This document shows positions 24,425-45,420 of a stretch of DNA of 64,000 nucleotides, in pieces. The stretch spans positions 2,604,001 to 2,668,000 of the forward strand of contig NZ_JACHLZ010000001.1 in NCBI RefSeq assembly GCF_014204755.1, read 5' to 3'. Position 1 is the first letter of the stretch, and the number at the start of each line of letters is the position of its first letter. A program made the position numbers and the translations under genes. Source of the stretch: Brachybacterium aquaticum. Its GTDB lineage: Bacteria; Actinomycetota; Actinomycetes; Actinomycetales; Dermabacteraceae. The notes beneath the pieces are model-generated. The model searched no databases. It had not been told where the DNA came from and saw only the letters and a program-made list of their open reading frames with translations.

Positions 24425-25570
24425 TCACGCCAGCGGCTGGACAAACTGAACGAAACCTTCTCCTGTCCAAATCCTAAGAACTGCATCTCGGAAGTCTTCG
24501 ACCCCAATGGAGCCCAGACGATCACTATCGACCACAAGAATTCCAACTGGCTCACGAAAACTCTCGCGCAGGTCACCTGCCATTAACTCGAGACCGCGAA
24601 CATCCCGGTCCGACATGTCCGAATAATCCTGTAGTGCCACCACCTGTATCGCCTTACATTCCGCCCTCTTCTGCCCATCGGGGCTGGCGGGATACGAGAA
24701 CCCACCCTTCAGCCAGACCGCAACTGAGGCCAGCCGCACCATGGAATCACGCATCCTCTTCGAAAACATCTTGACGCGTGAGAGCCTTACGTCAAATGCT
24801 ACCTGCCCGTACGAGTCGTCCCTGACGGGGCTAATAATTGCATCCACGATAACTGTCCTACCCGACTCTACATTCCTGACGGCGGCCCCGGGAGTTACAT
24901 TGAAGTCACCCCCGTAGGCTTCGACAAGGATGCGATACAGCCAGCCCTCGAGCTCCACGACCTTCTGTCGAACTTGCTGATGGCGCAATTCACGCGCTCC
25001 CAATTCCGGCTTACCATTTGTATCTCCGAGAGTCTTGCCATTCGCATCCTCGACCAGACTACCCGGGGGGCGCATGGTCGCATCCCCCGGGGCACGCTTG
25101 TCGCCAATCTCGCCCGCCAGCTTTTCGGGCACACGATCAGGTTTGCCGGCCAGTTCCATGAACTCCTCGGCTTCCCTTGCCCTCTTCTCCTCCATCTTCT
25201 CAGACGGCGCATTTAAGATTTCCGCCCTCTGCTTCTCGAGGACGACATTCTCAGTTTCGTTGGCCACTAGCTGGCGATCACGCCACTGCGACGCCCCCTG
25301 AAGCAATAGAGCTAAGCCCGAAAAAAACATTACTATCACCAAAATGGGAATACCCGAACCCTGAAGGGATGATATTATCTCTTGCCGTTCGAGAAGCGCT
25401 TCGCGCGCCACCGGCGTGTAGCTCTGAAGGTCACCCTCCGTGATACGCAATACGGCATCAACCTGAGCGAATCCCCATGGCATCAGGAACGCCGCCAGCA
25501 TGAGGCCTATCCCTAGGGACGAGGTGAACTTGTAGTAATGGCCGTAATCTAGTGCCGCAATTCCGTTCAA
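24425..25570 (-). CDS. Two-TM protein of unknown function, last gene of the defence operon
   Basis: 381-aa protein I cannot assign to a family. Residues 16-36 ('SLGIGLMLAAFLMPWGFA') and about 70-92 ('GIPILVIVMFFSGLALLLQG') are membrane helices. A charged, probably coiled-coil stretch follows (about 95-150), rich in Glu/Lys/Arg. The cytoplasmic C-terminal domain contains 'GWLYRILVEAYGGDF', 'VIVDAIISPVRDD' and 'AFDVRLSRV', an alternation reminiscent of PD-(D/E)XK or sensor folds but without a clear catalytic set. Its base composition is visibly less GC-rich than the rest of the window, suggesting separate transfer. It lies 112 bp downstream of the UvrD-like helicase on the same strand, so it may be the operon's membrane effector or sensor. 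Confidence 0.6.
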   Translation of the reverse strand: MNGIAALDYGHYYKFTSSLGIGLMLAAFLMPWGFAQVDAVLRITEGDLQSYTPVAREALLERQEIISSLQGSGIPILVIVMFFSGLALLLQGASQWRDRQLVANETENVVLEKQRAEILNAPSEKMEEKRAREAEEFMELAGKPDRVPEKLAGEIGDKRAPGDATMRPPGSLVEDANGKTLGDTNGKPELGARELRHQQVRQKVVELEGWLYRILVEAYGGDFNVTPGAAVRNVESGRTVIVDAIISPVRDDSYGQVAFDVRLSRVKMFSKRMRDSMVRLASVAVWLKGGFSYPASPDGQKRAECKAIQVVALQDYSDMSDRDVRGLELMAGDLRESFREPVGILVVDSDRLGSIGVEDFRDAVLRIWTGEGFVQFVQPLA

Positions 25571-25682
25571 GACGCCCGTCTCCGTAAGTTAGCTGACTCG
25601 ACAAAACTACAATCCGCCGCACCAGGCCCGCGGCAACCGATCCACAAACGACACACCGGAGCCCTTTCGAATCCTTCCGGTT

Positions 25683-28097
25683 CTATCGGCACCAAAGAGC
25701 ACTCTCCCGACCACGCCACGCCACCGCCAACTTATCCCGCGCCCGCGTCGCCCCCACGTACAGCAGCGACCGCTCTTGCAGCTCCGCCGCCTCACGGGTC
25801 TGGTCGTCATACGCACCCCGCGAGGGATCGATGGACGACGAGTCGTCCACGCCAAACAGGACCACGTGCGTGAACTCCATGCCCTTGGCCCGGTGGAACG
25901 ACATCACCAGCGGCGCCCCGCCGCGGTAGGTGGTGTTGCGGTCCACCGACACCACGCGGAGACCGCGGTCGTCGAGCGCGCGCACCAGGGTGTCGCGGGT
26001 CTTGTTGAACCGCGTGAGCACGCCGATGGTCGACGGGTCCCCGCCCTCCTTGACGACCTCATCGAGCCAGTCGCGCAGCAGTGAGGCGACCTTCTCGATC
26101 TCGTCGGCCAGGTCGGTGGCGGGCAGGAACGTCACCTCGGGTCCGCTGCGGGCGGAGCGGAAGGTGCCGCGTTCCCCGCCGTGGACGACCTCGTCGGCCG
26201 GGTCGTCGTCCTCCATGGCGGCGATGTCGAAGGCGCCGCCGCGCAGGATCGACACGGCGAAAGCCAGGTTCTGCGCGGTGGTGCGGTAGTTGAGCTTCAG
26301 GCGGCGTGACCGGCCGCGGATGGCGATACCGTAGCGGCCGAGCTTCACAGGGTTGGAGTAGATGCGCTGGTGGGAGTCCTCGGCGATGAACATGTCGTCC
26401 TCGCCCTCGGCGACCAGCGCTCGGAGCATCTGCCACTGGGTGGGGCGGAGGTCCTGGCCCTCGTCGACCAGCACGTGGTCGGCGACCCGCTCCCCCGTCG
26501 CCTCGGCGCGCGCGTCGAGGATCGCGGCGGCCACGGCGGAGGTCTCGTCCCAATCGAGGGCGGCGTCGCGCTTGCCGTTCTCGCGGTAGGCGGCGATCGC
26601 GGCCCACACCTCGCGCCGCTGGGCGCGGCCGAGCCTGGTGCCGCGTCCGCTCCGGGTCACGCGCAGGTACTCCCCCTCGGTAAGAACGCGGTGCGGGAGG
26701 ACCACCTCCCGGTACTCGTCTATAAGGAACGCTGCGGTGACGTGCGGCTGGCTGCGGTCACGGACGTTCCCGGCTGCGGCCGCGGTGTCGATCGCGATGT
26801 CCCATTCGCGGGCGTGGCGGGTGAACTTCGGTCCCCGCGCCGTCCATCCGAGCACGCTCGCCATCGGGGCGAGGTCCTGAGCGCCGGTGATCACGCCGTA
26901 GGCGATCCGGTCCACGCCGGTGACGTGGATGCCGGGTTTGCCGAGCGCGTCGGGACGCGCGATGTCCGGGGCGAGGGTGCGGACCTGCTGGTCGAGCGAT
27001 TCGGCGAGGGTGCGGGTGTAGGTGGTGAGCACGATCCGCGCCGGGTGACCGGCCTCCACGGACTTCCTCGCGAGCCGTACGGCGCGGTGCACGAGGACCA
27101 CGGTCTTCCCGGTGCCGGCACCGCCGGTGACCCGGTACGGGCCACGGGTGTTCACGTCGACGTAGGTCTTCTGCTCGGGGTGGAGGAAGATGCGCCACTG
27201 GGCGAAGCTGCCGGAGGCGAGGACCTCGGCGAGCGCCTTGTCGTCCTCGATGAGGTGGTAGCTCGCCTGCGACTTCTCGGCGCTCAGCGATTCGAGGACA
27301 TCCTCGGTGCCCGACGGGGTGCCGACCTCGCTGCCGCCGATCACACCCGTGAAGTACGACGCACGCACCTCCTCCAGGGTCGAGCCGGTGGCGAGGTCGA
27401 GCAGGGCGGTGCCCTGCCAGCCCTTCGTGCGGCTCGTGAGGGCGTCGAGCTCCTCCCCCGTCGCCTGAGCCGCCTCCTCCGCGAGGTCGGGGTCGAGGCC
27501 GAGGTCCTCGATCAGCTGCTGCGCGGTGTACTCGAGGAACGGGCCCGAGGGCACGGGAACTGACGGCGCCACCTCCTCGACAGCTGCCTCTTCGCCCTCC
27601 CCCGGCGATGCGGCGTCCGACGCCTCCTCCTCAGCCTCGAGGCCGCTCTGCTGCTGCGCGAGCATGCGCTCCGCCGCGAGCTTCTCGGCGAGTGCTGCGG
27701 CGCGGGAGCGCACCTCCTCCTCGCTGTAGCCACCGCCGGTCTTCACGGCGTCCTCGTCGGACCGGATCTCGGTGGTGCCGGAGATCGGGTTCATGCGCAG
27801 GTAGAGCGTGCGCGCCTTGCGGTAGGCGTCGTCGTGGTCGTAGATGCCCTCGACGAGCCACACGTTCTGCCCGGACGAGTTCAGGCGGAATACGAGCACC
27901 CGGTACTGGCGGTTCACGCGGACGGAGCGGATCCGGTCGTCCTTGGCGTTCTGGATCGGCTCGACGTGGAGGCCGGGCGACTCGGGAGTCGTGCGCAGGG
28001 TGTCGAGAGTGGACGTGACCTGCCCCGCCACGTCCCTGGGCACCGTCGTGAGGGTGGGCAGGAAGGTGTCCGAGATGGCGATGATGCCGTCGCTCAT
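25683..28097 (-). CDS. ParE/RelE-like domain fused to UvrD-type helicase
   Basis: 804-aa protein. Residues about 10-100 resemble a ParE/RelE toxin fold: 'VAGQVTSTLDTLRTTP', 'DRIRSVRVNRQYRVLVFRL', then 'VWLVEGIYDHDDAYRKA'. An acidic linker (about 125-190) follows. The rest is an SF1A helicase: Walker A 'TGGAGTGKTVVLVHRA' near residue 325, 'VLVDEGQDLRPTQWQML' (motif II), 'KLNYRTTAQNLAF' (motif IV) and 'LLYVGATRARDKLAV' (motif VI). Its ATG overlaps the stop of the DUF1998 helicase by 4 bp, so translation is coupled. The N-terminal domain may bind RNA or ribosomes, or simply act as an interaction module. Confidence 0.85.
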   Translation of the reverse strand: MSDGIIAISDTFLPTLTTVPRDVAGQVTSTLDTLRTTPESPGLHVEPIQNAKDDRIRSVRVNRQYRVLVFRLNSSGQNVWLVEGIYDHDDAYRKARTLYLRMNPISGTTEIRSDEDAVKTGGGYSEEEVRSRAAALAEKLAAERMLAQQQSGLEAEEEASDAASPGEGEEAAVEEVAPSVPVPSGPFLEYTAQQLIEDLGLDPDLAEEAAQATGEELDALTSRTKGWQGTALLDLATGSTLEEVRASYFTGVIGGSEVGTPSGTEDVLESLSAEKSQASYHLIEDDKALAEVLASGSFAQWRIFLHPEQKTYVDVNTRGPYRVTGGAGTGKTVVLVHRAVRLARKSVEAGHPARIVLTTYTRTLAESLDQQVRTLAPDIARPDALGKPGIHVTGVDRIAYGVITGAQDLAPMASVLGWTARGPKFTRHAREWDIAIDTAAAAGNVRDRSQPHVTAAFLIDEYREVVLPHRVLTEGEYLRVTRSGRGTRLGRAQRREVWAAIAAYRENGKRDAALDWDETSAVAAAILDARAEATGERVADHVLVDEGQDLRPTQWQMLRALVAEGEDDMFIAEDSHQRIYSNPVKLGRYGIAIRGRSRRLKLNYRTTAQNLAFAVSILRGGAFDIAAMEDDDPADEVVHGGERGTFRSARSGPEVTFLPATDLADEIEKVASLLRDWLDEVVKEGGDPSTIGVLTRFNKTRDTLVRALDDRGLRVVSVDRNTTYRGGAPLVMSFHRAKGMEFTHVVLFGVDDSSSIDPSRGAYDDQTREAAELQERSLLYVGATRARDKLAVAWRGRESALWCR

Positions 28098-31000
28098 TGG
28101 TCTCCTCGTCCGGTCAGCTCCAGTGCTGCAAGGACATTTTCGGGGTCGGGTCCGACGATCGCCCAGCCCTGCTGTTCGAGTGCGGTGCGCTCGCGGGGCG
28201 AGAGCTCCTCGGCGGTGACGCCGACCTTGCGGTCCGGCCAGGCGATCTCGAGCGGGGTCCCCTCGCCGTACTCGTCGCCGATGATCGGCGGTTCGATGTC
28301 GTAACGGGAGACGAGGGTGATGAGGCGGCGCTCGATCTCGTCCGCCGCCTCATCGAGGGCGTCCTGCCACTCCGGCGAGAGATGCCCGGCCTCGGCGTCG
28401 TCCAGCTCGGGAACAGCCACGACGTCCGCGGGCAGCGGCGTCGGCGTCGGGGTCGTGGGGGCTTCCGTCTGCTCGCGGGTGGGCTGCGCGGTGGGTTCTT
28501 CGGCCGACGGGATCCGCGGTGCAGCGGCGCCGTCGGAGGTCACGTCGATGCCGGCCTCGACCAGGCTCACCGTGGTCAGGCGCAGCGTGTCACCGAAGGG
28601 GTCGCCCTGGGCGAGGTTGGCGAGCTGGAGCCAAGTGCGCCAGGAGTCCGCGGAGCTCCCGCGGCGCAGCGCCTCGTCGCGGTCGTCGAGGACGAGGGTG
28701 AGGCTGAAGCGCAGCGGGCCGGGCTGTCCCACGGCAGCGACCTCGTCCCGGGCCTTCGCGACAGCGAGTCGTGTCGGGTCGGAGAAGGGGGCAGGTCGCG
28801 TCCCGGAGAGGAGTTCTGTGCCGATGCGCTCCGCCGAGACCTCCCCGAGTGTGGTGAGCGAGGACTGGTCGCCGCCCTTCACCATCAGGACGGGGAGGGC
28901 CGCGGCCAGCGTGTTCAGGCGGTCGACCTTGCCACGGGTGACGATCTCGGTGAGGAGACCGAAGGGGGTGGCGCGCAGCAGCGGTTCGAGCGTACGGTAC
29001 TGCGCTCCCGCGTCGGCCCATTGGCGGACGGTGACGGGGTCGACGAAGGCCGGCAAGGCGCCCTGTGCACGGTCGCTGTCGAGGTCCTCACGCCGCGCGG
29101 CGTCCTCCGTGAGGTCCGCTTCCGTGATCGAGAGCGTCAGGTACCCGGCTCGTCGCAGGCGCATCCGCTTGATGGCGTCGTCGGCGACGCGGTTCTTCGC
29201 GGCGGTGGCGTGGAACTCGCGGCCGTCGGTGAAGATGGCGACGCCCTTCACGTCGCTGCCGGGCCAGGTGAGGACGAAGTCGGGGCGCGAGCCTGCGATG
29301 TCGACCTGGCTCTCGAGGGTGAAGGTGCGCTCGTCGTAGCGGACGCTGATCGAGGAGCCGCGCGTGGTGACGTCGGCACCGTCGATGCTGCGCATCGCGT
29401 GGATGTACGCGTTGCGGAAGCGCCGCTCGAGGGAGGACTCGGAGACCGCGCCGAGCTCGACCTCGCGCTCCTCGACGGTCCACTGCATCGCACCAGGCTG
29501 CGGGTCCTCGGCCCCGAGCAGCACGTGGAGCGCTTCGATCGCCGTGGTGCGGCGCATGCTCTCGTAGGCGTCGGGCCGGACGTAGGGCAGCAGGCACCGG
29601 TGGCATGCGGCGAGTCCCTCGTCCTGGCAGGGGCAGGTCTCGAGTGCTCGGAGTCCGGCGAGGAGCACGTCCCAGACGGAGCGCGCGGAGGCGAGCTCGA
29701 AGAGGTAGCCGGTGCCGCCCACGATGGTGTCGGAGAGCAGCACCGCTGTGTGACCGGCCTCGTTGGGGTGGGCGATGAGGTCGACGTCGAGGTTGCCGAT
29801 GCTGCCGCCGAAGCGCATCTGGATGCCGAGTCGCAGGGCGGCGACGAGATTCACGAGCAGGTCGCCGGCGGCGTCGTCGAGGATCTCGGGCGGGAGCGTG
29901 ATGAGGACGGTCTCGGTCTTCAAGGTGCGCGAGAGGAGTGCGGCGCGGTTGTCGCCCTCGCGTGCGTAGCGGAGGTCGCACCATGCCTGGTGGTCCTGGG
30001 GCTTGTTCCCGGCGGTGTCGGAGTCGTGATGGCCGCAGTGGGCGCAGAGCAGGAATCCGGGCGCGGTGCGCTCCTCCCCGGAGATGCGGATCTTCTCGGC
30101 GACCTGGTGGGGGCGGCCGAGGTTCAACCGGGTCAGGGTAGTGTCACGGTCCAAGCGCATCCCGAATCCGGTGCCGACCACGTTCCAGCTCTGGACCTGC
30201 TTGGCGTCGTGGAAGGAGACGGAGAGTGCCTGTTCGAACTGCACCTTCTCGCGGTCGTCCCGGGAGTCGCCGATGCGGGTCCGGCTGCGACTCATGGTCG
30301 AGTAGACGCGGGTGAGGTCGATGACGTCGCGGTGCTGGCCGGCGTCGGCGATCTCGGCGCTGTGGCAGTTCGGGCAGGACTGGGGTGGCTGGCTCTTCTC
30401 GAAGGGGTGGGCGAGGCCGCAGCGCGGGCAGAACGCGGTGGGCTTCAGGGCAGCACCGTCGATGCCGATGTCCACAGCGTCGACCACGAGCTCGCGGCCG
30501 TGGGCGTAGAAGTGGGCGCCAGGCGCGAGCTCGGTGAGGGCGGCGGCACCGGAGCGGGTGTAGCTCACGGGGTCGTGCTTCCAGGTGCCGTCCTCGTCCT
30601 GCCAGATCACGGTGGCTTCGAGCGCGACCGCGTCGTCGACCAGGGTGAAGTTGGGCAGGAGGCCGTAGCGCTCCATCACGCCGATCCAGTGGGCGCTGTC
30701 GAGGGCGGACACCTCGGCGCTGAGCTGACCGGCGCGGCCGCGCAGGCGTCGGCGTTCCTTCTCCTGCTCCTCGGCGGTGAGGGTGGGCTCGGCACCGATC
30801 TCGTCCTGCTCGGCGGAGATGAGGAGATCCTCGGCGCGAAGCGCTGCCATGGCCTCGGCGCGCTCATCGGTCAACGGCTGGTTCTCGAGGTGCTCGAGGT
30901 TGGTCTGGATCCTCGCGCGTCGGCGGCGCAGCTCCTCCCGGCTCGCCGTCCAGCGTGCGACAGCGGTGTGGAGGGATGCGATGAGCTGGCTCTGACCACC

Positions 31001-34000
31001 ATCGTCCTGCGGCAGTGCCCAGGCCCGCAGATCCTCACGGGCCTGATCGGTGAGTCCATCCCAGGAATGAGTGCCTGTGGTGAAGCGCGCGAGGAATCGG
31101 TCCACATGCACCTCCCCGTTCTGGGTCATCTCCTCGATGACATGCCCCAGGAAGGTGCCCGGCGCTGCGGACGCCAGCACGGGTGTGGTGCGAGCAGGAG
31201 GCTGGACACGATCGTCGCCGGCGAGGGTGTCGAGGACGGACGCGAGAAGCTGTCGTCGGAGGATCTCCTGCGCCGAGAGGTACGCACCCGGTGCGCGAAC
31301 GGTGCCGTTCAACAGGTCGAGGGGGTCGTAGTAGAGGCCAGCTGCGCGCCCACGGCCGGCGACGAAGGTGACGTCCAGGGCGTTGCCGGTCTGTCGGCCA
31401 GCGCGTCCCACGCGCTGGAGGTAGCTGGCGACGGTCTTCGGGACGGAGGCGAGCAGCACAGTCGAGAGGTCGCCGATGTCGATGCCCATCTCAAGGGTGG
31501 GGGTGGCGACGAGGACGTTGGGCGTGCCGGGTGCCTGCTCGCTGTTCTTGAAGGACGTCTCGTAGCGCAGGCGGTCCTCGGTGGTGAGCAGGGAAGTGTG
31601 TTCGCGGGCGACGACGCGTCGCATGTCGCCCTGGTAGAGGCTGCGGTAGTAGGTGGCGCGCAGCTCACGGGTCCGGAGCGTGCCGAGGCAGCGGTGGCGC
31701 AGGCAGGGTCCGTCCTGCAGCTGGGCGAGCACGGTGCTGGTGCCGGTCACCGTCTCGCGGCATTCGTCGCAGATCAGCACGGGAGTGCCGTCCTCCGCGG
31801 TGCCGGCGGGCAGGCACGCTTCGATGCGGTCCGGGACGAGGGCGTAGCTGCGCAGCCCGCCGCTGGTGGCCTCCTCGACGTCGAGGACTCCCTGGTCGGT
31901 GAGGGCGTCGAGGAGCGGGCGGAGGAACGTGGAGGTGGTGCCGCGGTCGCGGGCCAGCACGCGAGCGCTCCAGTCCGCGTACCAGCCGGAACGGGAGGTC
32001 GCGTCCTCGAACTCGCTGCGAGCGCCCTGTCGGCCGATGCTCGGAAGCTGCGGCAGGGCACGGCCGGTGGGGAACGCGGGCATGAGGTCCTGCTCGGGGC
32101 GTCCTCCCCAGAGGCGGTACACCGGTCCGCCGTCGCGGCGGAAGGACGTCAGCCAGTCGTGGGCGATGGCGCCGTGGGTGCGCAAGCGCTCGAGGATGCC
32201 GCGCACCCAGCGTCGGCGCACGGCGACGTCGTCCCCGTCGAGCTGCAGTGTGCTCGTGCCGAGCGCGCGTTCCGCGGCCTGATCGAGCTCCGTGTCGGTG
32301 GCGCGCACGTGGGCGAGCGCCGAGCCGGTGAGCAGCAGGGTGCGACCCACCTGTCCGGTGAGTCCCAGTTCGAGGCCGACGTCGAAGGTGAGTCGCTTGG
32401 CGACGCGCGCGGTGGCTCGTTGCATGTCGCGGGTGCGGTGGCCGCGGCGGCGCTCAGGGTCCTGGTGCCAGAAGGCGGTGAGCCGGTCGGAGTCCGTGAT
32501 CGTGGGGTGGAGGAGCCGGTAGCGCTGCTCGTCCGTGGTGGCGGAGGCGAGCATCCGCTCGACGAGAGTGGTGATCGGTGCAGGCTCGGTGGTGAGTGCG
32601 TGCTGGATGACCGAGCGCATGGTGAGGCTGTAGGAGCGTGCTTCGACGAAGCCCGCGCGGTGGGCGGCGTCCTGCACGGAGTCGGTGAAGACGAGTGCCT
32701 TCTTCTCCTGCAGGTCGAGGCCGGGCGTGCCGAAGAGACTGGTGAGCGCGACGGAGAGCAGGGTCGCCAGGCGTGTGCCGAGGAAGCGGATCCCGTCCTT
32801 CTCGCCGCAGGCCGGGCAGGTCTGGTCGTTGGCGTGCTTGTCCGCGTCGAGGCCGGCGTGCACGAGCACGCGGAACACGTCGGAGTCCGGGTCTCCCTCC
32901 ACGGGGCCGAGGCGGTCGAGGGATTCGCTGGCGAGTCTCAGATAGCGGCGGCGGGAGGTCTCAGGAGTGGTGGCGTCAGGGTCCTCATCGGTGGTGGTGA
33001 CGTCGAGGATGAGTGCGCGGAAGCGTCCGGTCTTCTCCGCGGAGTCCTTGCGGATGCGGTCGGGGCGCAGGTCGAGGTCGTCGCCGACGGCACGGGTAGT
33101 GACGCCCCAGCCGGAGCGTCCGCAGTGCCGGCAGTAGATGGCGGGCAGGGCGCGGTCATCGTCCTCGGCGAGAGCGTCGGACCAGGTGAAAGTCGGGGCG
33201 GTGCTGACAATGCGGTCCACGCGGGTGATCTCGCGCAGCCAGAGGTGGGCTTCGAGATTCGGGAAAGAGTTGCGCGGTGCCTCCTTCCGGGCGCGTTCGT
33301 GGGAGAGCACCGCGAGGAGAGCTGTCGTGAAGTCCTGGGCGACAGATGAATCGGAGATCCAGGGGAAGACCGTCGAGGCCAGGTCGCGCAGCTCCGTCGC
33401 ACGAGCGGTGCTGCGCAAAAGATCCGCGACGAGCGGGTGGGCGAGCAGGAGGTCCCGGGTGGAGATGCCGTGCTGCGCGGCCACGGTACTCGCGGTCGCA
33501 TCATCGGCGGACCACAGCACATCGAGCACGTCGACAGTGAGCTGGTCGGCGTCGACTGGATGGCCTGGTTCGAGGTGGGGTCCGACGGCAAAGGCCATGG
33601 AAGACGCCGAAGGAAGTCGCTGCGCTCGAAGTGCAGTTCCCTCCCCCGCCGCACCCGTCTCTGCTGCAACGACTGCTTCGCGCGAGGGCCGCACGAACTC
33701 GTCGAGGTCGAAGCGGGTCTCGGTGATCACGGCATTTTCGCCGATGTCGGTGCCGAAGACTGTACGTGCGAAGTCGAGCATGGCGGTCGACGCATCCGCG
33801 CCGTCGCCGAGGGTGGCGGAGGTGGCGACGGGGGTGAGGTGCACGCGGCCGGGCACGATTTGGTCGAGCACCAGGCGCAGGCGACGCAGCAGCATGCCCA
33901 CGTCCGTGCCCTGCGCGCCGTCGTAGGTATGGAACTCATCGAGCACCAGGTAGCGCAGCGACGCGGCGGAGGCCTCCCACAGGGGCCGGTCGGCGCGGCG

Positions 34001-34681: not shown

Positions 34682-37600
34682 GATCCGTTCTCCTCCATCC
34701 GCCGGGTGAACTCGGCGTAGGCCTGGCGCATGTCCGCTTCCCGATCGAGGATCCGGAACGGCTGCTCGTACACGATGGTGCGGCCGGTGCCGGTGGCGCT
34801 GGGATGCACGGCGGTACGGTCCTCGAGCGGCAAGCCCGTCTCGGGTCGGCCCGCCTTGTTCCAGGCGGTGCGGACGGCGCTCGGGATCTGCCGGCCGTTC
34901 GCGTCGAAGATGTACGCCTTCTTCCCCTCGCCGCGGTCGTAGTCGTTCAGCACCCCGAACTGGGTGCGGTAGATCGTCACCAGGTCATCGATCGAGATCC
35001 CGGTGACGATCGCCATGATCGCGTCGATCTCCACCAGCGCCTGCCTGCGGTCCTCATCGATCCGCAGCGGCGACGCCATCGACCACTCCGGGCCGACGTC
35101 CCCGAGGGCGGGCCGGTTCGGACGGTCGAGGCCACCGGTCCAGGCATCGGCGGTGAAGGAGGAGTCGAAGGTGTCACGCCAGAGATCGGCGTAGGCAGTG
35201 GTGAGGGAGTTGAGGCGGAGGGTGCGCAAATGCGCGGCCGGGGCTAGCCAGTGGTCGCTCGGAACGACCGGTAGCCGTTCTACCGCAGTTGGAGATATGC
35301 CCGAGCCGACGGAACTGCGTATCACAAAATCGGCAAGCAATGACCCCATCGAAGCAACGAGCCCAACCAGCGATGTTTTCGCACATCCGGGAAGGCCGTA
35401 GGAGTTCACCGAGTGGACGGCCGCCGCACCCGGCGGGAAGATAGCGGGAACGAGAGTTCTCTCCCCGTTGCCAGCAGCCATAGCCCGCCACATCACCCTG
35501 TAGAAGGTACGAACCGGCGTCACATCCGTGACCGTCTCGCCATCACGGGTGTTGGTGTAGGACCAGGTGCCGTAGGCCTTGTCGTAGATGGACGTGTTGG
35601 AGACGAGCTCACCGCCCGCGGCCTTCGTCTCACAATAGAGGGGCTTGTACTCGGTCGCGGGGATCGCCGAGGGCAACAACGCCTCGAGGTCGGTCACGGA
35701 GTAATCTTGGAAATTCTTCATGGTGCTGTTCAACTGCGCGAACAATGGATTTGAGACGTGAAAAGAAGCCCCCTGCAGTATCACTTCCTCCCACGATTCC
35801 GGCACTCCCCAGCGGGACTCGAAGCGGCCCTTGGCACGGTCACCAGTCTCGTGCCATCCACTGCTGAATCGCGGGGCGAGCGAGCCGACCTTTGTGGTCC
35901 TCGAAAGGATCTCGAGCGCCGTCGCCGCGGCGTGATTGACGCTCGAAAGCATGCGACTCGACTCCACCGCCACTTCAGAGTTGCCCGACTCCATGAGAGA
36001 GTGCCACAGCTCGAGCTGATCCCGCCGATTACGCTGAATACGGGCGCGGTGAGGCGTGAGGTCCCAGCTCCCTTCGGCGTTCTTGAAACCAGGCTCAGGG
36101 CCGGTACCGTCGTGGCGGAACGATGCCTCCACAACCGTCGGGTGAAAGATCCCGACCGCGCTCAGAAAGTCAACGTCACGTGGCGCTCCATAGACGTTCA
36201 CTGAATACCAAATCTCGTCCTTAATCTCGTGGAAGAGACGGAGTTTGTTTAGGAGCCGCCAGTGACGGCGCATGCGCCGGTAGGTCGCCAGACGCAGGGC
36301 GTACCCGCGTGCATCGGTGAGATGCGTCGGCGGGTGCACGAGCGTGACGATGCCGGTCGCTGACGAGTGCGCCCACGTCTGCGCCATGAAGTTCCGGTAT
36401 AGGTCCGGCTGGGTCCCAGTCATGTCCGGATACATCGCCGCAGAGCCGACGAACTCCGCCGTCGCAGCGACATCGCGAGTCCCCGACAGCAGCGCCTCCG
36501 CCGCACCCTCATGACCGAGAGTCAGTTCCCGCCGGTGCTTCTTCTCTGCGTTCGACGGCTTGTTGCTGAGCACCCACCACGGGTTGAACTCTCCCAGCAG
36601 TCCCGGGAGGTCCAACGTCGGCCGCACCCACGGCGGGTTCCCGACCTGCAGGTCGAAACCCCTACGGTCGAACGCCGCTGCGAAGTCGAGCTCCCAGTGG
36701 AAGAAGCGCTGTTCGGCAGCGATCTCGGTGCAGCGCTTCAGCCACGGGGTGTCGGCGATGAGCCGCTCGGTGTTCGCGGCATTGCCCAAGGGGAACATCA
36801 TTTCGACAGCATCGAGCTGTTCCCATACCTCCGCGCTGCCGAGCGCGAGCTGGCCTTCGCCGGGTCCCTTGGCGTTCTTCGTGTGCTTCACGACCTCGAA
36901 GGACGTCCCGAGGATTTTCTGCACCGTCGCCAGCCACTGCGGGAACCTCGGCGGGGCGATCTCGTCGTCGGGGAGCACAGGCCAGAACCACAGGGCGCAC
37001 CAGGCGTCCATCACCAGGCGCAGCCGCTGGTAGGCACAGTTCGCATCCGCGAGGGTGTCCTCGATCTGCGTCCTCGTGACTGCGCCGCCCTCGCTGGTCT
37101 CCGCGCCCCACACGGGGATCGCGCGGCGGGACTGCTCCTCCGCGGCGCGGATGCGGCGCAGGGCCAGGCCCCACAGTTCCTCGACGCGCTGGGAGAGGGT
37201 CTGCAGCTGCGCGAGCTGCGGCGGCGTGAGCTTCCCGGCCCAGTCCTTAGCGTGGTCGCGGAGGTCCTTCGCGGCGTCAGGGGCGAGCTTCTTGATCTCC
37301 GCATCCTGCGCGGCGGCGAGCCACCCCTCCCCCGGCAGCAGGAAGTGGGCGATCCGCCCAGCCATGCTCGCTCGCGTGCCGTCGGCCCCGACGGGGTCGT
37401 GCACGGTGGTGACCGGCAGGGTCTCCGGCGCGGTCTCCACGACGGCCTTGAGCTTGGACTTCTTGAGTGTGTCCGCGCGGTACACGGCGTGCCGCGCACC
37501 GATGAGCGAATTACCGGCGCGCAGCCGCAGACCGAACCACGGTGCCTTCAGCCCCGGTGCCATCGTGTCCAGCCACAGGGACACCTCGGCGAGCTCCACG

Positions 37601-39630
37601 GCGGTGGGATTCAGGTCCACGCCGTACACGTTGTGCAGGGCGATATAGGCCTTCACCCGCTGCAGCTCCTCCGCGTACCGCTCGGGGTCGATGCGCTGAT
37701 CGAGCTCGTCCTGACGGCGGGTGAGGTACTCGGCGGCGAGCTGGCGCACCGCCTCGATCGCGAACGCCCCGGAGCCCAGGGCTGGCTCGCAGATCGACAT
37801 GTTCAGGATCTCCGCAGCGGTGGTGCGCCTGCGACGGATCGGCTGGTGGTCGAAGTCCTCGTCGTCGAACACCACAGTACCCTCGGGCAGGTCGGTCTCG
37901 TCGGTGATGACGGGGTCGAGCAGCTCGGCGAGGCCCTGGGCGACGGTGAAGGAGGTGATGACCTCCGGGGAGTAGTAGCTCGCGGACTGCTGGCGGGCGC
38001 GGCCGGAGAGACGGAACACGAACTCGCCGTGGCGGTAGGTGCGTGGCACCTTCTTGCCCGTCTCGTCCTCGACCATGACGAGGTGCTGGGTCATGGAGTC
38101 GTCGATGACGTCCTCCGGGACCACCCAGGAGCCGTCCTTCGGGTCCCCGCCCTTGGCGACCTCGACGAGGTCCTGGTCGGCGAAGGAACCGGTGTAGCTC
38201 ATGAGGGACTCGTAGACCGCGCCGAGCTGGTTGATGCCGAGGGCGACGTAGCTGATGAAGCCGCGGCTCTTGCCCTTCTGCACCCGGGAGAGCAGGAGGT
38301 TCTCGAGCACGGCCTGGAGTGCCTTGTTGCCGAGCTTGACCTCGTCAATGAGGGCGGTGCGGTCGGCGCGGAACAGGTCCGCGTCGAGGTTCTCGAAGAC
38401 GAGGGCGCCGCCGCCGTGCTCGGCAGGACCGTCCGCCTGCACGTCCTCGGGGCGGTGGCCGGTGTTGATGAGGTCGAAGAGGACCTGGAGGGAGCGGTAC
38501 AGGTACGTGCCGTCGGCCGCATCGAGAGGGACCTCGCGCTGGGTGAGATCACGGAGGCGGTCCAAGGAGTAACCGGCCTGGTACTCCGGGGCACCGACCG
38601 GGAGCACGCCCAGTTCGGGGCTCGCCTCCGCGTACAGCAGGAACAGGATCCGGTAGAGGTAGCGCAGCGACTGCAGGGCGAGCGGCTGCGCCTGGTCCTG
38701 CGGCAGGGGCGCGAGTCCCTGGGCGTCGCGGCGGCGGATCACCTCGTTGGCGATGATCTCGATGCTCTCGCGGACGCCGTCGCGGAGGTCCTCCGAGACT
38801 CCCACCGCGTTGTCGATCGACTCCTGGACCGTGTCGGTCCACCAGATCTGGGAGTTCGCATCCGGGGCGAGGGAGTCGGCGCTGAGGGCGGCGAGCATGC
38901 GCTCGACCTCGCCGCCGCGCTTCTGGTCATTGCGCTCGGCGATGGTCTGGAGGTCGGCGACGAGGTAACGGCCCTGCGGCCATAGGCGCGAGGAGGTGAG
39001 GACGGCGAAGCGGCCGGCGAGGACGAGGAGGAACTCGGGAGCGTCCTTCTCGATGGCGAGGGCGGAGAGGACCTGGGGGACGGTGGTGAGACGCTGCTCG
39101 TCCTCGGTGCCCTCGTGGAGAACGACGTCGGTGGGGAGGTAGCCGGCCTGCTTGGCGAGGACATCCTGGACGTCGTCGGCCGCGAGCGCGTCGAGCATCG
39201 CGAACGGGGCCTCGTCGACACCCCGTGTCGCGTAGCGACGCAGGGGTCCGGTGGTGGTCACGTCCCAGCGGCCGGGAGCCGCGTTGCCGTCGGAATCGGT
39301 CTGCTCGGTGTAGCCGAGGATCGTGCGGAGCTCGTCGGCCAGTCGGAGGGACCGCTCCCCCAGCAGCTCGCGACGCTCGCTCGAGCTCGCCGTCTCCGGG
39401 AGTGCGGCGGTGTCGGCCTGGAGATCCAGCAGGCGGCTCACCAGGCCCGTGCGGGCGGCGGTGAAGCGGTCCCGGGGGCTCTGCCAGGTCGGGTCCTCCT
39501 CGCCGGTGGTGCGCCATTCCTGGAGCAGTGCCTTGGTGCGGGCGGTGAAGGTCTTCGACGCGTCATCCGCGGTGAAGTAGTGCTCGCTGATCCAGTCCTC
39601 GACCACGTAGAGGGCATCGCTGATCGCCAT
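34678..39630 (-). CDS. Eco57I/PglX-type DNA adenine methyltransferase
   Basis: 1650-aa enzyme. SAM-binding motif I is 'CEPALGSGAFAIEAVRQL' near residue 612; motif IV is 'GNPPWVRP' at about 997-1004, which marks an N6-adenine methylase. 'VYGVDLNPTAVELAEVSLWL', between them, is the usual Eco57I-family helix. The long N-terminal part (about 1-600) and the region after 1050 likely recognise target DNA and partner subunits, as in PglX of BREX and DrmMI of DISARM. No endonuclease motif was found, so cutting or blocking must come from other subunits. The gene starts 11 bp after the SNF2 gene. Sequence around 35700-36500 is slightly less GC-rich, suggesting a variable specificity region. Confidence 0.85.
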   Translation of the reverse strand: MAISDALYVVEDWISEHYFTADDASKTFTARTKALLQEWRTTGEEDPTWQSPRDRFTAARTGLVSRLLDLQADTAALPETASSSERRELLGERSLRLADELRTILGYTEQTDSDGNAAPGRWDVTTTGPLRRYATRGVDEAPFAMLDALAADDVQDVLAKQAGYLPTDVVLHEGTEDEQRLTTVPQVLSALAIEKDAPEFLLVLAGRFAVLTSSRLWPQGRYLVADLQTIAERNDQKRGGEVERMLAALSADSLAPDANSQIWWTDTVQESIDNAVGVSEDLRDGVRESIEIIANEVIRRRDAQGLAPLPQDQAQPLALQSLRYLYRILFLLYAEASPELGVLPVGAPEYQAGYSLDRLRDLTQREVPLDAADGTYLYRSLQVLFDLINTGHRPEDVQADGPAEHGGGALVFENLDADLFRADRTALIDEVKLGNKALQAVLENLLLSRVQKGKSRGFISYVALGINQLGAVYESLMSYTGSFADQDLVEVAKGGDPKDGSWVVPEDVIDDSMTQHLVMVEDETGKKVPRTYRHGEFVFRLSGRARQQSASYYSPEVITSFTVAQGLAELLDPVITDETDLPEGTVVFDDEDFDHQPIRRRRTTAAEILNMSICEPALGSGAFAIEAVRQLAAEYLTRRQDELDQRIDPERYAEELQRVKAYIALHNVYGVDLNPTAVELAEVSLWLDTMAPGLKAPWFGLRLRAGNSLIGARHAVYRADTLKKSKLKAVVETAPETLPVTTVHDPVGADGTRASMAGRIAHFLLPGEGWLAAAQDAEIKKLAPDAAKDLRDHAKDWAGKLTPPQLAQLQTLSQRVEELWGLALRRIRAAEEQSRRAIPVWGAETSEGGAVTRTQIEDTLADANCAYQRLRLVMDAWCALWFWPVLPDDEIAPPRFPQWLATVQKILGTSFEVVKHTKNAKGPGEGQLALGSAEVWEQLDAVEMMFPLGNAANTERLIADTPWLKRCTEIAAEQRFFHWELDFAAAFDRRGFDLQVGNPPWVRPTLDLPGLLGEFNPWWVLSNKPSNAEKKHRRELTLGHEGAAEALLSGTRDVAATAEFVGSAAMYPDMTGTQPDLYRNFMAQTWAHSSATGIVTLVHPPTHLTDARGYALRLATYRRMRRHWRLLNKLRLFHEIKDEIWYSVNVYGAPRDVDFLSAVGIFHPTVVEASFRHDGTGPEPGFKNAEGSWDLTPHRARIQRNRRDQLELWHSLMESGNSEVAVESSRMLSSVNHAAATALEILSRTTKVGSLAPRFSSGWHETGDRAKGRFESRWGVPESWEEVILQGASFHVSNPLFAQLNSTMKNFQDYSVTDLEALLPSAIPATEYKPLYCETKAAGGELVSNTSIYDKAYGTWSYTNTRDGETVTDVTPVRTFYRVMWRAMAAGNGERTLVPAIFPPGAAAVHSVNSYGLPGCAKTSLVGLVASMGSLLADFVIRSSVGSGISPTAVERLPVVPSDHWLAPAAHLRTLRLNSLTTAYADLWRDTFDSSFTADAWTGGLDRPNRPALGDVGPEWSMASPLRIDEDRRQALVEIDAIMAIVTGISIDDLVTIYRTQFGVLNDYDRGEGKKAYIFDANGRQIPSAVRTAWNKAGRPETGLPLEDRTAVHPSATGTGRTIVYEQPFRILDREADMRQAYAEFTRRMEENGS

Positions 39631-39641
39631 GGGGAGACTCC

Positions 39642-42551
39642 TCAGGCCTGGGGACGGGGGACGACGACGAGCAGCGGGCGTGCGAAGGTGCGGTCCGGGA
39701 GCATGTCGGTGACGAGCTTCTTCTCCACCGCGAGGGCGTCACGGGTGGCGAGGAGCAGGGCGGACTGGCCGCGGGTGTGGGCGGCGTCGGCCTCCCAGCG
39801 CTGCTGCTCCTCCTGCCAGTGCTGGACGCGGGCTTCCGCGGCCGCCGTGATGCCCGGGGCGATCCTCTGCTCCATGAACTCGCGGGCGACGGGCACCGCC
39901 TGCCGGAGGAGTGCCTGGTACTGGGCCGGGTCCTCGACGGCGGTGCCGATCGCGTCGGGGTCGAGGCCGATCTCCTGGAACAGGGACGAGGGCGCGGTGT
40001 GAGGGAGGGCGCGCAGCGTGCCGTGGTCATTGGCGATGCCGAGGACGGTCGAGGAGACGATCTGGCCGCGGGCGGTGGTGAGGGTGCCCTGGAAGATCAC
40101 CCAGGGCTGGTCGACCTTGCCGTGGATCGCGAAGACCTCACCGCTCGGGACGCCGCCGAGCACGCGGTCGCTCATCCAGTCCAGGACCGGGTGGAGCGGG
40201 CCGAGGTAGTGGACGTCGGGCCAGTTGGTGCCGGTGTCGTCGTCGAGCGCGGCGCGCAGGCGCTTCGCGGCGACGTCGGCCCGGGAGGTGAGGTGCAGGG
40301 TCTCCTTGACGCGGCGGTCCTTGAGGTAGGACTGCGGGAGGTGGTCGAGGCGCCGGCCGAGGTTCTCGCCGGGGGTGAACTGGATCAGGCCCGTGGACCG
40401 GTCCAGCACGAGGTCGACCCCGCCGCTGGCGATCGGCCGGCCGGGCTCGGTGTGCAGCTCGGTGAGGCCCGAGAGCAGGAAGTCCGCGTCGGAGGTGAAC
40501 AGGCCCGTGGCGAAGGAGGTCTCCTGCGCGGCGCGGTGGCCGTCGCGGCGACGGGTAGGAGCGGAGTCCTGGGCGAGGAGGCCCTGGAGGAAGGCGCTCA
40601 TCGGGTCGATCTGTGCGACCTCGGGGAGCACGTCCTCGACGTCCTTCTCGCTGCGGAGCACGTCGATGAGGGCGCGCTCCTCGGCGCCGGCGTCGTACTT
40701 CTGCATGAGGGACGCGGCGTCGCCGAGCTGCTCGTGGGCTTCCTTCTCACGTTCGAGGAGACGGCGGAGCACGTAGATGTCACCGTCGAAGCCGTCGACC
40801 TCGGAGAGGTCCAGCAACAGGGCGGTGATCTGCGGGGGTGTGCGCTGGCCGTAGCGGTCGATGCGGCCGTTGCGCTGCTCGATCCGGATGAGGGACCACG
40901 GCACGTCGAAGTGGACCAGCTCGTGGCACTGGGCGTGGAGGTTCACACCTTCGGAGGCGATGTCGCCGGTGATGAGGATGCGGATCGCGGAGGAGCTCTG
41001 CTTGAAGGACTCCACGATCCGCTGCTGCTCGACGTCGGTGAGCCCACCGTGGAGCACCGCGATCTGGTCGTCCTTGAGCTTCAGGTCCTCCAGGAGGTGC
41101 TCACGCAGCCACGACAGGGTCGCGACGCGCTCGGCGAAGACGACCACGCGCTCGGGCGACGTGCGGGCGACGCCCTTGTCCCGCAGCAGCTGGACCAGAC
41201 GCTGGTACTTGCCCGAGCGGGGAGTGCCGTCGGCCGGGAGGCAGGCCTCGTTCAGAGCGCCGAGGCGATCGAGGGCCGCCGCCTCGGCGGCGAAGGCGCT
41301 GCTGGGCGGGATCTCGGCGAGGGTGCCGGCATCGGCCTTCCCGAGGATCTCGCGGGCGCGGTTGCGGAGCGTCTCGCGGAGCGCGACCGGGGAGGAGAGG
41401 AAGGCCTTGGCGAGGGTCCACGGGAACAGCTGGGAGCCGCGGCCGGACATGGGGCCGTGGCCCGCGGGCGGGTGGGTCCAGGTCGAGGCGATCTCGTGGG
41501 CGACGGCGAGCTCTTCCGGGGAGGGCTCGACCGGCAGCATCTCCGGCGGCCTGCGCTCCGCCCAGTTCTCCCCCACCTCGTCCTTCACCGAGTCCGAGTA
41601 ACGGTGGCGGCGGATCATGAGGCGCTGTGTGGCGTCCTCGGCGATCTCGCGCTTCGGGGAGACGGCGGTGGGCTCCAGCAGGCTGATGAGCTGGGCGAAG
41701 GAGTCGTTGGAGCCGTTGTGCGGGGTGGCCGAGGCGAGGATCAGCGCATCGGTGTTCGGTGCCAGCACGTGGGCGAGCTGGTTGTTCTGCGTGGACTGGT
41801 TGGTGACGTTGTGCGACTCGTCGATCACGACCGCGTCCCAGCGATGGTGGCGCAGGTCGTGGACGAAACGGTCCTGCTTGAGGGTGTCGATCGAGATGAT
41901 CACCTTCTCGAAGAAGGTGAAGGGGTTCCGCGACGCCGGCAGCTGCTGCTTGACCTGCTGCACGCCCTCGGAGTCCAGGCGCACGAACGGGATCGCGAAG
42001 CGGGTCCACAGCTCGTGCTGCATCTGCTCGAGGACATGGCGGGGGCAGACGATAAGGATGCGCCGGCCGCGACCGCGACGAATCAGCTCCGAAAGGATCA
42101 TGCCGATCTCGAGCGTCTTTCCGAGGCCGACCGCATCCGCGATCAGCAGACGGGGGCGGATCCGCTCCGGGTCCAGCGCCATCTCGACGGCCTCGCGCTG
42201 GTACGGGAGATCGTCCGCCAGCATCTGGGTCGAGACGGTGAGGTCCGGGTGGTCGACGGGGACCGGGGTCTTGCGGAGGGTGGACTCGATCCACAGCCGG
42301 GTGCGGCGGTAGCGCGGGGAGGTGTCCGCGACGACGGTCGAGTCCTCCGGGGCGAGGACGGAGATGTCGTCGAGGGAGCGGTAGAAGGACGCGGTGGTGT
42401 CCTTGACGAAGTCGCTCACCCCGCGGACCGCGTACAGCGGCCCGTCCGGGGTGTCCTCCACGGAGGTGACGAGCCACGTCTCGTCACGGACGACCACCAG
42501 GGAGCCGGGCGAGATCACGCCGGCGTCCTCCTCGACTGCCTGTGCGTGCAC
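39642..42551 (-). CDS. SNF2-family helicase/translocase (DrmD-like)
   Basis: 969-aa SF2 ATPase with a GTG start behind GGGAGG. Walker A is 'ADAVGLGKTLEIGMIL' near residue 140; the DEAH-type box is 'VVIDESHNV' at about 241-249, followed by 'SATPHNGSNDSFAQL'. The second RecA lobe has 'ITGDIASEGVNLHAQCHELVH' and 'RIEQRNGRIDRYGQ'. This is the layout of class 1 DISARM DrmD and related RapA/SNF2 proteins of phage-defence loci. It probably moves along DNA rather than unwinds it. It is the first gene of the five-gene minus operon; its promoter lies in the 133-bp divergent gap. Confidence 0.85.
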   Translation of the reverse strand: MHAQAVEEDAGVISPGSLVVVRDETWLVTSVEDTPDGPLYAVRGVSDFVKDTTASFYRSLDDISVLAPEDSTVVADTSPRYRRTRLWIESTLRKTPVPVDHPDLTVSTQMLADDLPYQREAVEMALDPERIRPRLLIADAVGLGKTLEIGMILSELIRRGRGRRILIVCPRHVLEQMQHELWTRFAIPFVRLDSEGVQQVKQQLPASRNPFTFFEKVIISIDTLKQDRFVHDLRHHRWDAVVIDESHNVTNQSTQNNQLAHVLAPNTDALILASATPHNGSNDSFAQLISLLEPTAVSPKREIAEDATQRLMIRRHRYSDSVKDEVGENWAERRPPEMLPVEPSPEELAVAHEIASTWTHPPAGHGPMSGRGSQLFPWTLAKAFLSSPVALRETLRNRAREILGKADAGTLAEIPPSSAFAAEAAALDRLGALNEACLPADGTPRSGKYQRLVQLLRDKGVARTSPERVVVFAERVATLSWLREHLLEDLKLKDDQIAVLHGGLTDVEQQRIVESFKQSSSAIRILITGDIASEGVNLHAQCHELVHFDVPWSLIRIEQRNGRIDRYGQRTPPQITALLLDLSEVDGFDGDIYVLRRLLEREKEAHEQLGDAASLMQKYDAGAEERALIDVLRSEKDVEDVLPEVAQIDPMSAFLQGLLAQDSAPTRRRDGHRAAQETSFATGLFTSDADFLLSGLTELHTEPGRPIASGGVDLVLDRSTGLIQFTPGENLGRRLDHLPQSYLKDRRVKETLHLTSRADVAAKRLRAALDDDTGTNWPDVHYLGPLHPVLDWMSDRVLGGVPSGEVFAIHGKVDQPWVIFQGTLTTARGQIVSSTVLGIANDHGTLRALPHTAPSSLFQEIGLDPDAIGTAVEDPAQYQALLRQAVPVAREFMEQRIAPGITAAAEARVQHWQEEQQRWEADAAHTRGQSALLLATRDALAVEKKLVTDMLPDRTFARPLLVVVPRPQA

Positions 42552-42684
42552 TGCGATCCTCCCTGCGGCATCTCTACCGCAGTGACTCTACGGCAACTTG
42601 CGTGCATTGTGCTGGTCAGGGCGGACATTCGGACGGGGCGGGACGGCCCTGCCGATTGTCCGGGGGCGAACCTAGGATCTGGTC
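42552..42684. promoter_or_regulatory. Divergent promoter region of the defence island
   Basis: 133 bp between the SNF2 gene (minus) and the HNH gene (plus), the only place where both arms of the island could be transcribed from. Two similar 8-9 bp stretches (CCGTAGAG and GCGGTAGAG on the minus strand, about 42565-42595) form an imperfect direct repeat just upstream of the SNF2 RBS. I could not define -35/-10 boxes, and no regulator gene lies nearby. Confidence 0.4.
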
Positions 42685-43629
42685 ATGGCTGTGGACATCT
42701 CGGACCTGCTCGAGCGCGGTGCGCTGACCATGGACGATGACGTCTCGTTCCGCACCCATGTGGAGGTCGCCCGGCTGTTCGGGTTCGAGTACAAGGGGCA
42801 TCAGCAGGCGACGATCCGGCTCGATGAGCACACGGACGTGTGGTTCCCGAAGCTCTTCGCGAACCGGGACTGGATCAACGCCCTCTCCCCCGAGGGTCTC
42901 GAGATCACGATGCGCCCGGCCGACGGCAGCCAGTACGGCCACCGGATGGAGACCACGCGCCGCGAGGACGTGATCGCCTTCGGGAAGGAGGGCCCCTCCG
43001 GGGACTACCGGTTCCTCGGAGTCTTCCGCTTCAACCCGCTCCGCTCCAATGACGAGGAGTGGGTGTTCGACCGCATCGCCGCCTCGATCACCCTGGGCGG
43101 CGAGGAGCGTTTCGGGTATCAGGACGGTGCGCTGCGCGCCGGCCAGGACGACCTCACGGCCGAGGCCGCTCCCGTGAACCCCGACCTGGTCCGGGAGTTC
43201 GACCAGCGCATCCCGGAAGGGCAGTTCGCCGTCGAGGACCGGGAGGTGCTGACGCGGACCCGCGGCAGCGCGCGGCGCTCCTTCGCGGAAGAGGTGAAGA
43301 GCAACTATCAATGGACATGCGCTCTCACCGGCATCGGCACCCGCGCGTTCCTCGTCGCCTCGCACATCGTGCCGTGGAGCGAGGACACCTCGATCCGCTT
43401 GGACCCGAGCAATGGGATCTGCCTGTCCACGTTCGTGGACCGGGCGTTCGACGCGGGGTACCTGGAGATCACTCCCGACGGGGTGAGCCGGGTGCGGTGG
43501 GAGCGGGTGGGCGACGATGCCCCGCTGCGGGAGGAGCTCTCGCGGTTCGATGGGGTCGCTCTGGCCCGACCGCAGGCTGGGGCGCCGGACCCGGAGAAGC
43601 TGCGGCGGCGGGTTGAGCTGGGGTACTGA
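42685..43629 (+). CDS. HNH endonuclease, probable restriction enzyme
   Basis: 314-aa protein. The C-terminal HNH domain (about 215-265) shows 'YQWTCALTGIG', then 'LVASHIVPWSED' (catalytic His) and 'RLDPSNGICLSTFVDRAFD' (Asn and the last metal/phosphate residue). The N-terminal 200 residues ('FRTHVEVARLFGFEYKGHQQ', 'YRFLGVFRFNPLRSNDEE') are of a type found before HNH domains in modification-dependent enzymes and may read DNA sequence or base modification. No methylase is paired with it. It is transcribed away from the main operon and followed closely by the DUF6308 gene. Confidence 0.75.
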   Translation: MAVDISDLLERGALTMDDDVSFRTHVEVARLFGFEYKGHQQATIRLDEHTDVWFPKLFANRDWINALSPEGLEITMRPADGSQYGHRMETTRREDVIAFGKEGPSGDYRFLGVFRFNPLRSNDEEWVFDRIAASITLGGEERFGYQDGALRAGQDDLTAEAAPVNPDLVREFDQRIPEGQFAVEDREVLTRTRGSARRSFAEEVKSNYQWTCALTGIGTRAFLVASHIVPWSEDTSIRLDPSNGICLSTFVDRAFDAGYLEITPDGVSRVRWERVGDDAPLREELSRFDGVALARPQAGAPDPEKLRRRVELGY

Positions 43630-43665
43630 TTTGGCATGCAAACGTCCTGCACCAAGGAGGATCAC

Positions 43666-44328: not shown

Positions 44329-44393
44329 ATGCGCGATTCCCACTTGGCGGCAATGAAGATGCGGCACTTGAACGGTGAGGACGGGAAGAGATA

Positions 44394-45338: not shown

Positions 45339-45420
45339 GGCTCGGTCAATGCGCTGCATCTCTGCGAGAGTCGCGCGATGATGGACGAACGTGCACCGCC
45401 TGAGGAAGGACCCGCAACGC

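Follow-up and report, generated by a model that had tools for sequence, protein, structure and literature searches.

Does an operon that combines parts resembling DISARM with parts resembling Druantia represent a new anti-phage defence system? The question is raised by a locus in a stretch of 64,000 nucleotides of the Brachybacterium aquaticum genome (contig NZ_JACHLZ010000001.1, positions 2,604,001 to 2,668,000; referred to as the window). The original prediction, made from the sequence alone, described five minus-strand open reading frames (ORFs) encoding a SNF2 helicase, an Eco57I-type methylase, a DEAD-DUF1998 helicase, a ParE-like/UvrD helicase and a protein with two transmembrane (TM) segments, and proposed either a little-described relative of both systems or a separate one. 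All five ORFs are present, and the locus is indeed related to both DISARM and Druantia yet is neither, the relative having since been named ARMADA. We are highly confident that the locus encodes an ARMADA Type II system, complete and intact (armA, armB, armC and armD), in a defence island of a high-GC actinobacterium, followed by an unrelated gene for the two-TM protein. The system has already been named and tested, and the locus is a new copy of it, not a new system. The claim of novelty fails because the four genes map one-to-one, in order, onto an already defined system.

Correspondence with ARMADA Type II

ARMADA was named by Bell et al. (bioRxiv 2025.09.15.676423, PMC12458937) as an anti-phage system working in Escherichia coli, and among the literature matches listed the name is used in the defence-system sense by these authors and in PMC13192584 and PMC12904381. 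The available part of the preprint (PMC12458937) gives for Type II a strict order of a BrxHII/RapA-like helicase, a PglX-like methyltransferase, a YprA-like helicase with a Vsr-type nuclease and a GajB-like helicase fused to a RelE-like domain, and the features that it lists for the Type II ArmC include BrxA-like, beta-barrel and MarR-like insertions. In the window, armA is first, armB, which encodes the NPPW motif, is second, armC is third and the GajB-like armD is fourth. The domain calls of the original prediction for the four enzymes hold in Pfam, with matches to SNF2-rel_dom and Helicase_C (ArmA), Eco57I (ArmB), DEAD, Helicase_C and MZB (ArmC), and UvrD-helicase and UvrD_C (ArmD).

The ARMADA II locus of E. 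coli ATCC 8739, which was used for the deletions in the preprint (PMC12458937), served for comparison. ArmA was 35.9% identical to its E. coli counterpart over 797 columns, ArmB 32.2% over 1542 columns, ArmC 28.7% over 2309 columns (residues 7–2187 of 2195) and ArmD 30.4% over 631 columns plus 27.4% over 106 N-terminal columns. The two loci share the same four genes in the same order and on the same strand, with the same domain set (the RelE-like domain of the window ArmD being putative) and with similarity over most of each protein. They differ in that the window copy, at about 29–36% identity, has the additional two-TM gene downstream, and in their neighbours, which are divergent SRA-HNH and GmrSD-type genes in the window and Druantia III and Zorya II in E. 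coli ATCC 8739.

Eight mutated positions are reported in the preprint (PMC12458937) for the ARMADA II of NCTC 12900. In the ATCC 8739 proteins each of the eight is occupied by the residue that the preprint gives, and the aligned window proteins have an identical residue there. They are K145 and D244 of ArmA (E. coli K136 and D236; kept in 23/24 alignment rows each), G619 and N998 of ArmB, the latter in the NPPW motif (G605 and N971; 26/29 and 28/29), K123 and D248 of ArmC (K110 and D234; 36/36 each) and K331 and D545 of ArmD (K266 and D454; 40/40 and 39/40). The rows counted include the window and E. coli, some are short, and each miss is a gap.

The profiles in PADLOC-DB 2.0.0 were scanned with the five operon proteins and five other window proteins, taking the best 25 of 34–39 matches for three of them. 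The best model for ArmA was DrmD (312 bits); the NCBIfam DrmD model gave 332 bits, under its cut-off of 610 bits. ArmB matched REase_MTase_IIG (1232 bits) and DrmMI (161 bits), and ArmC matched DruE models best (282.6 bits, as against 68.6 bits for DrmA models). Both NERD-UvrD and GajB models matched ArmD. With this library the operon therefore falls apart into pieces of DISARM, Druantia, NERD-UvrD/Gabija and Type IIG, which gives it its hybrid look; the profile search suggested with the original prediction thus returned matches for all four genes but spread them over several systems. The 1232-bit match was to model PDLC03611, which carries the Type IIG label but may really describe ArmB-type proteins and cause these to be mislabelled.

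Gene order and the ArmC phylogeny in related loci

A search with ArmD found matches at an E-value of 0.001 or less in 350 of the 396 genomes of the order, most of them weak, as expected from generic UvrD helicases. The strong matches (E-value 4.6e-99 or better) yielded 38 slices, of which six came from five further genomes of the genus; weaker matches were omitted. The order armA-armB-armC-armD on one strand was found in 20 of the 38 slices. In 34, armC preceded armD on the same strand, including 14 in which armA or armB was not detected in order, in several cases because the slice or contig ends. Neither pattern was seen in the remaining four (L052, L066, L070 and L074, the last cut to 7 kb). 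Conservation of the five-gene order had been put forward as a check of the original prediction; the order of four genes was recovered in those 20 slices and the fifth gene in none of the 38. Homologues at 77–90% identity occur in L036 and L038, which belong to two further genomes of the genus. All six plasmid loci chosen from ArmC matches, from E. coli, Streptomyces, Nostoc, Tsukamurella (with a split armC), Haematobacter and Microvirga, also had the four genes in order, with an extra gene between armB and armC in Nostoc and Haematobacter.

Several related loci had further genes within or beside the operon. In seven (L042, L046, L047, L048, L051, L054 and L060), 2.5–7 kb separates the armB and armC matches, and the ORFs in between, judged by eye, include DUF262, TIR, PIN, AAA/ATPase and helicase genes that are mostly locus-specific. 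These may be defence genes nested inside the operon. The intervening genes were considered as a variant of the system and rejected, as they differ between loci except for five small groups of 2–3 ORFs that are shared, and for this reason they have the appearance of other genes inserted there. A tandem pair of ArmD-like genes lies behind a single ArmC in L061 (784–5299, minus strand). In the Tsukamurella plasmid (L085, 1–24173), UvrD, helicase-related and DUF1998 genes directly precede the ARMADA II genes; here armC is broken into two parts, and behind armD lies a second UvrD gene. An Allomeiothermus plasmid (L088, 3179–19006) has brxL directly before ArmA-, ArmB-, ArmC- and ArmD-like matches in order; this locus is possibly a BREX/ARMADA mixture or a deep branch.

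A quick phylogenetic tree of ArmC was built from 26 rows, which do not cover the full YprA family. The window sequence grouped with those of its own genus (support 100). A branch with a Shimodaira-Hasegawa-like approximate likelihood ratio test (SH-aLRT) value of 93 united 21 rows, namely the window, the E. coli ArmC and 19 others. On the other side of this branch were two DruE rows, a Rhodococcus sequence from a locus in Type I order, the Allomeiothermus sequence and a YprA piece from the same genome as the window. ArmC relatives were also sought in viral contigs, where 10 stretches matched a pattern and none was confirmed.

The C-terminal tail of the window ArmC was aligned with those from 25 of the 34 slices yielding one, giving 26 members. 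The restriction-endonuclease-like family REase_MTES_1575 matched the window tail with an E-value of 3.1e-5, under the curated cut-off, and was matched by 13 of the 26 members, while Vsr and DUF559 each matched one of the 26. Four positions (E27, D76, D94 and H99 in tail numbering) were invariant in all 26. The tail thus appears to agree with the Vsr-type nuclease described for Type II in the preprint. A search of the PDB with the tail profile returned only the chains RBL4 and RBL7_C2_3, which matched behind the nuclease region and were judged irrelevant.

Some observations weigh against the assignment to Type II or against parts of it. The SH-aLRT value of 93 is under the treekit star level of 95, and the quick tree contains several long branches, two of which meet. 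Although the Allomeiothermus plasmid has matches in the four-gene order, the tree places its ArmC-like protein apart from the Type II group, and because of this order alone does not define Type II. The single-sequence fold of the ArmC tail was poor (mean predicted local distance difference test score, pLDDT, 36) and was not used; because the tail could not be folded, the nuclease call rests on the profile matches below cut-off together with the conserved positions. While the UvrD helicase part of the predicted ParE-like/UvrD protein holds in Pfam, the ParE/RelE-like label for its N-terminus is weak by the same measure, with HigB-like matching 3 of 33 family members (best E-value 0.04) and ParE_like 2 of 33 (best E-value 0.017), and comparison of the ArmD N-terminus profile with the PDB gave no useful match. 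Finally, the preprint (PMC12458937) reports that an ArmB mutant in the S-adenosylmethionine (SAM) motif kept part of its activity, and because only part was lost, methylation as a self mark is unproven.

Three known systems share components with the window operon. A divergent Class 1 DISARM with DrmA and DrmB fused into one protein would explain why ArmA is closest to DrmD models and why ArmB matches DrmMI models, but Class 1 requires drmA, drmB and drmC, and no separate DrmA, DrmB or DrmC was found among the PADLOC matches listed for the ten window proteins, in line with the absence of these genes claimed in the original prediction. The sole other MZB/DUF1998 match in the genome is an 825-codon frame elsewhere, and the window helicase is of the ArmC/DruE kind, fitting DruE models over DrmA models and E. 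coli ArmC nearly end to end, so that we give the DISARM explanation almost no credence. The same preference for DruE models is what speaks for a Druantia variant without DruH; Druantia III also has a YprA-family helicase related to the window protein. However, the similarity of ArmC to E. coli DruE is confined to three short pieces, as opposed to the nearly full-length match with E. coli ArmC, and the DruE rows stand apart from the window in the tree. According to PMC13192584, DruE and DruH are the sole components of Druantia III, whereas the window has three further enzymes and no druH beside the helicase gene; the helicase tail in Druantia III is of the PLD type, in contrast to the Vsr-type tail of ArmC. 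In keeping with the absence of DruH noted in the original prediction, an E. coli DruH query found nothing in this genome, a search with no positive control at that distance. A Druantia variant is accordingly as far-fetched as a DISARM one. ARMADA Type I has a SNF2 helicase, a methyltransferase and a YprA-like helicase in common with the window, but it usually starts with the YprA gene (PMC12458937, as far as available), where the window operon starts with armA, and the Rhodococcus plasmid relative in Type I order is placed elsewhere in the ArmC tree.

The fifth gene and the neighbouring genes

The features of the locus are listed in Table 1. The spacings between consecutive genes from armA to the fifth gene are 11, -4, -4 and 112 bp, in agreement with the 4-bp overlaps and the two gaps originally described. 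A simple codon-usage gene caller picked armA to armD and did not pick the fifth gene. The predicted five-gene operon is thus retained as a four-gene unit, with a last gene that is deviant in composition and does not travel with the other four.

Table 1. Coordinates of the window ARMADA II genes and associated features
Feature	Position in window	Strand	Description
armA	39642..42551	minus	969 amino acids (aa), first gene; SNF2/RapA (BrxHII/DrmD-like) helicase
armB	34678..39630	minus	1650 aa; PglX/YeeA-like adenine-type DNA methyltransferase, Eco57I (Pfam)
armC	28094..34681	minus	2195 aa; YprA-family DEAD helicase, MZB/DUF1998, putative C-terminal Vsr-type (PD-(D/E)xK) nuclease
Vsr-type nuclease region in armC (putative)	29096..29428	minus	approximate, residues 1752-1862
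armD	25683..28097	minus	804 aa; putative RelE-like domain fused to UvrD/GajB-like helicase
Fifth gene	24425..25570	minus	381 aa, TTG start; two hydrophobic segments; probably outside the system
Intergenic region between armA and divergent SRA-HNH gene	42552..42684		133 bp; likely to contain the operon promoter

The two hydrophobic segments claimed for the fifth protein are present. Its gene has a GC content of 0.560, and 0.620 at third codon positions (GC3), compared with 0.672–0.706 and 0.873–0.951, respectively, in armA to armD. The protein had no PADLOC or NCBIfam match, and its single Pfam match (E-value 0.053) was below the cut-off. A profile search (E-value of 10 or less) detected no relative in the 38 slices, five of which hold less than 2 kb behind ArmD. 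The same search over a Microbacterium slice and seven further loci matched the Microbacterium relative only. No relative was found in the other 37 genomes of the genus (38 searched, with the gene itself the sole match) or, at an E-value of 1e-3 or less, on plasmids. Two of the 396 genomes of the order matched, these being B. aquaticum itself and one Microbacterium. At an E-value of 0.01 or less, 6 of 396 genomes of the phylum, a set that partly overlaps that of the order, gave the gene itself and five weak matches of 49–111 residues. A scan of genome contigs confirmed one locus from 91 candidate stretches, on the same Microbacterium contig. The relative, in Microbacterium gallinarum, is 27% identical and adjoins what, judged by eye, looks like a relaxase gene; no ArmA to ArmD match was found in the 16-kb slice around it, and the best ArmD match of that genome had an E-value of 4.6e-4. 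In the 15 relatives listed, the stretch behind armD contains different ORFs or is not long enough for a judgement. A fold of the fifth protein predicted from a two-sequence alignment (mean pLDDT 60, predicted template modelling score 0.40) had a mixed alpha/beta C-terminal region, and a Foldseek search of the PDB with this model gave no match at an E-value of 0.001 or less. The C-terminus is possibly PD-(D/E)xK-like, a lead taken by eye from a motif of D then ExK in Microbacterium and D then DxR in the window.

After these searches of the order, genus, phylum and plasmids the fifth gene was rejected as a conserved part of the system, leaving the proposed membrane component unsupported. Given its deviant composition, its rarity and a lone clear relative with no ARMADA genes beside it, the gene probably sits as a passenger between the operon and the transposase genes at 21521–24026. 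A five-component variant of ARMADA II, in which the two-TM protein, possibly with an inactive PD-(D/E)xK-like domain, would anchor or regulate the system at the membrane, draws on the position of the gene on the same strand 112 bp behind armD and on the genes found close behind armD in other ARMADA II loci (for example, encoding 104 aa on an E. coli plasmid and 132 aa in Microvirga). We regard this as improbable, as the slices, the genus and the plasmids held no relative, GC3 falls well outside the range of armA to armD, the clear relative in M. gallinarum lacks an ArmA to ArmD match in its slice, and four genes suffice for ARMADA in E. coli according to the available text (PMC12458937). That the protein is a lineage-specific fifth component by which the complex is held at the membrane, for instance where phage DNA enters, is rated slightly lower again. 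The transposase genes downstream could also be taken as a sign that the locus is a silent relic that looks intact, but the four long open frames, their tight spacing, the retention of all eight key residues and the closely similar homologues in L036 and L038 make this very unlikely, and an intact four-gene ARMADA II remains the preferred reading.

The transposase genes encode a Mutator-family transposase (plus strand) and a DDE_Tnp_1 transposase (minus strand), and the two ORFs overlap at 22854–22870. On the other side of the operon, a divergent cluster of four genes (42685–47322, plus strand) encodes an SRA-HNH protein of the methyl-directed restriction type, a DUF6308 protein, a protein with a weak GIY-YIG match and a GmrSD_N/DUF262 protein. 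The cluster, which lies 133 bp from armA, seems to be a second defence unit of the modification-dependent kind. Relatives of the GmrSD_N protein were found in 4 of the 46 loci tested (L058, L061, L062 and L069), two of them 47–51% identical over 613–627 columns.

Predicted activity of the window system

The gene content and order, the families and the conserved catalytic residues of the window operon are those of ARMADA Type II, and the activity of this copy and the division of labour among its proteins are predicted by analogy. In E. coli, as described in the preprint (PMC12458937), each of the four ARMADA II genes is needed, mutants of the Walker A and NPPW motifs fail, and protection is direct and does not involve cell suicide: assays of the membrane and of metabolism indicate that infected cells survive, although lysis occurred at the highest phage doses. 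On this model the window copy is likely to provide direct, non-abortive defence against phage DNA. ArmB would methylate adenines of the host DNA, possibly as a self mark, and/or aid target recognition. The ArmA translocase and the ArmC helicase-nuclease would target phage DNA, either because it is unmarked or because it has structures typical of infection, and block its replication, with ArmD, a UvrD helicase carrying a putative RelE-like domain, as their obligatory partner. DruE, which is related to ArmC, loads on 3' single-stranded DNA according to the accessible text of a 2026 preprint (PMC13192584), and infection-type DNA structures are therefore a plausible trigger for ArmC. A review (PMC12904381) counts ARMADA among the systems whose mechanism of restricting unmodified DNA is unknown.

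The locus illustrates how an older annotation library such as PADLOC-DB 2.0.0 can make an ARMADA II operon pass for a hybrid. As a complete actinobacterial ARMADA II with close copies in the genus, it could be used to test the function of the system outside E. coli.

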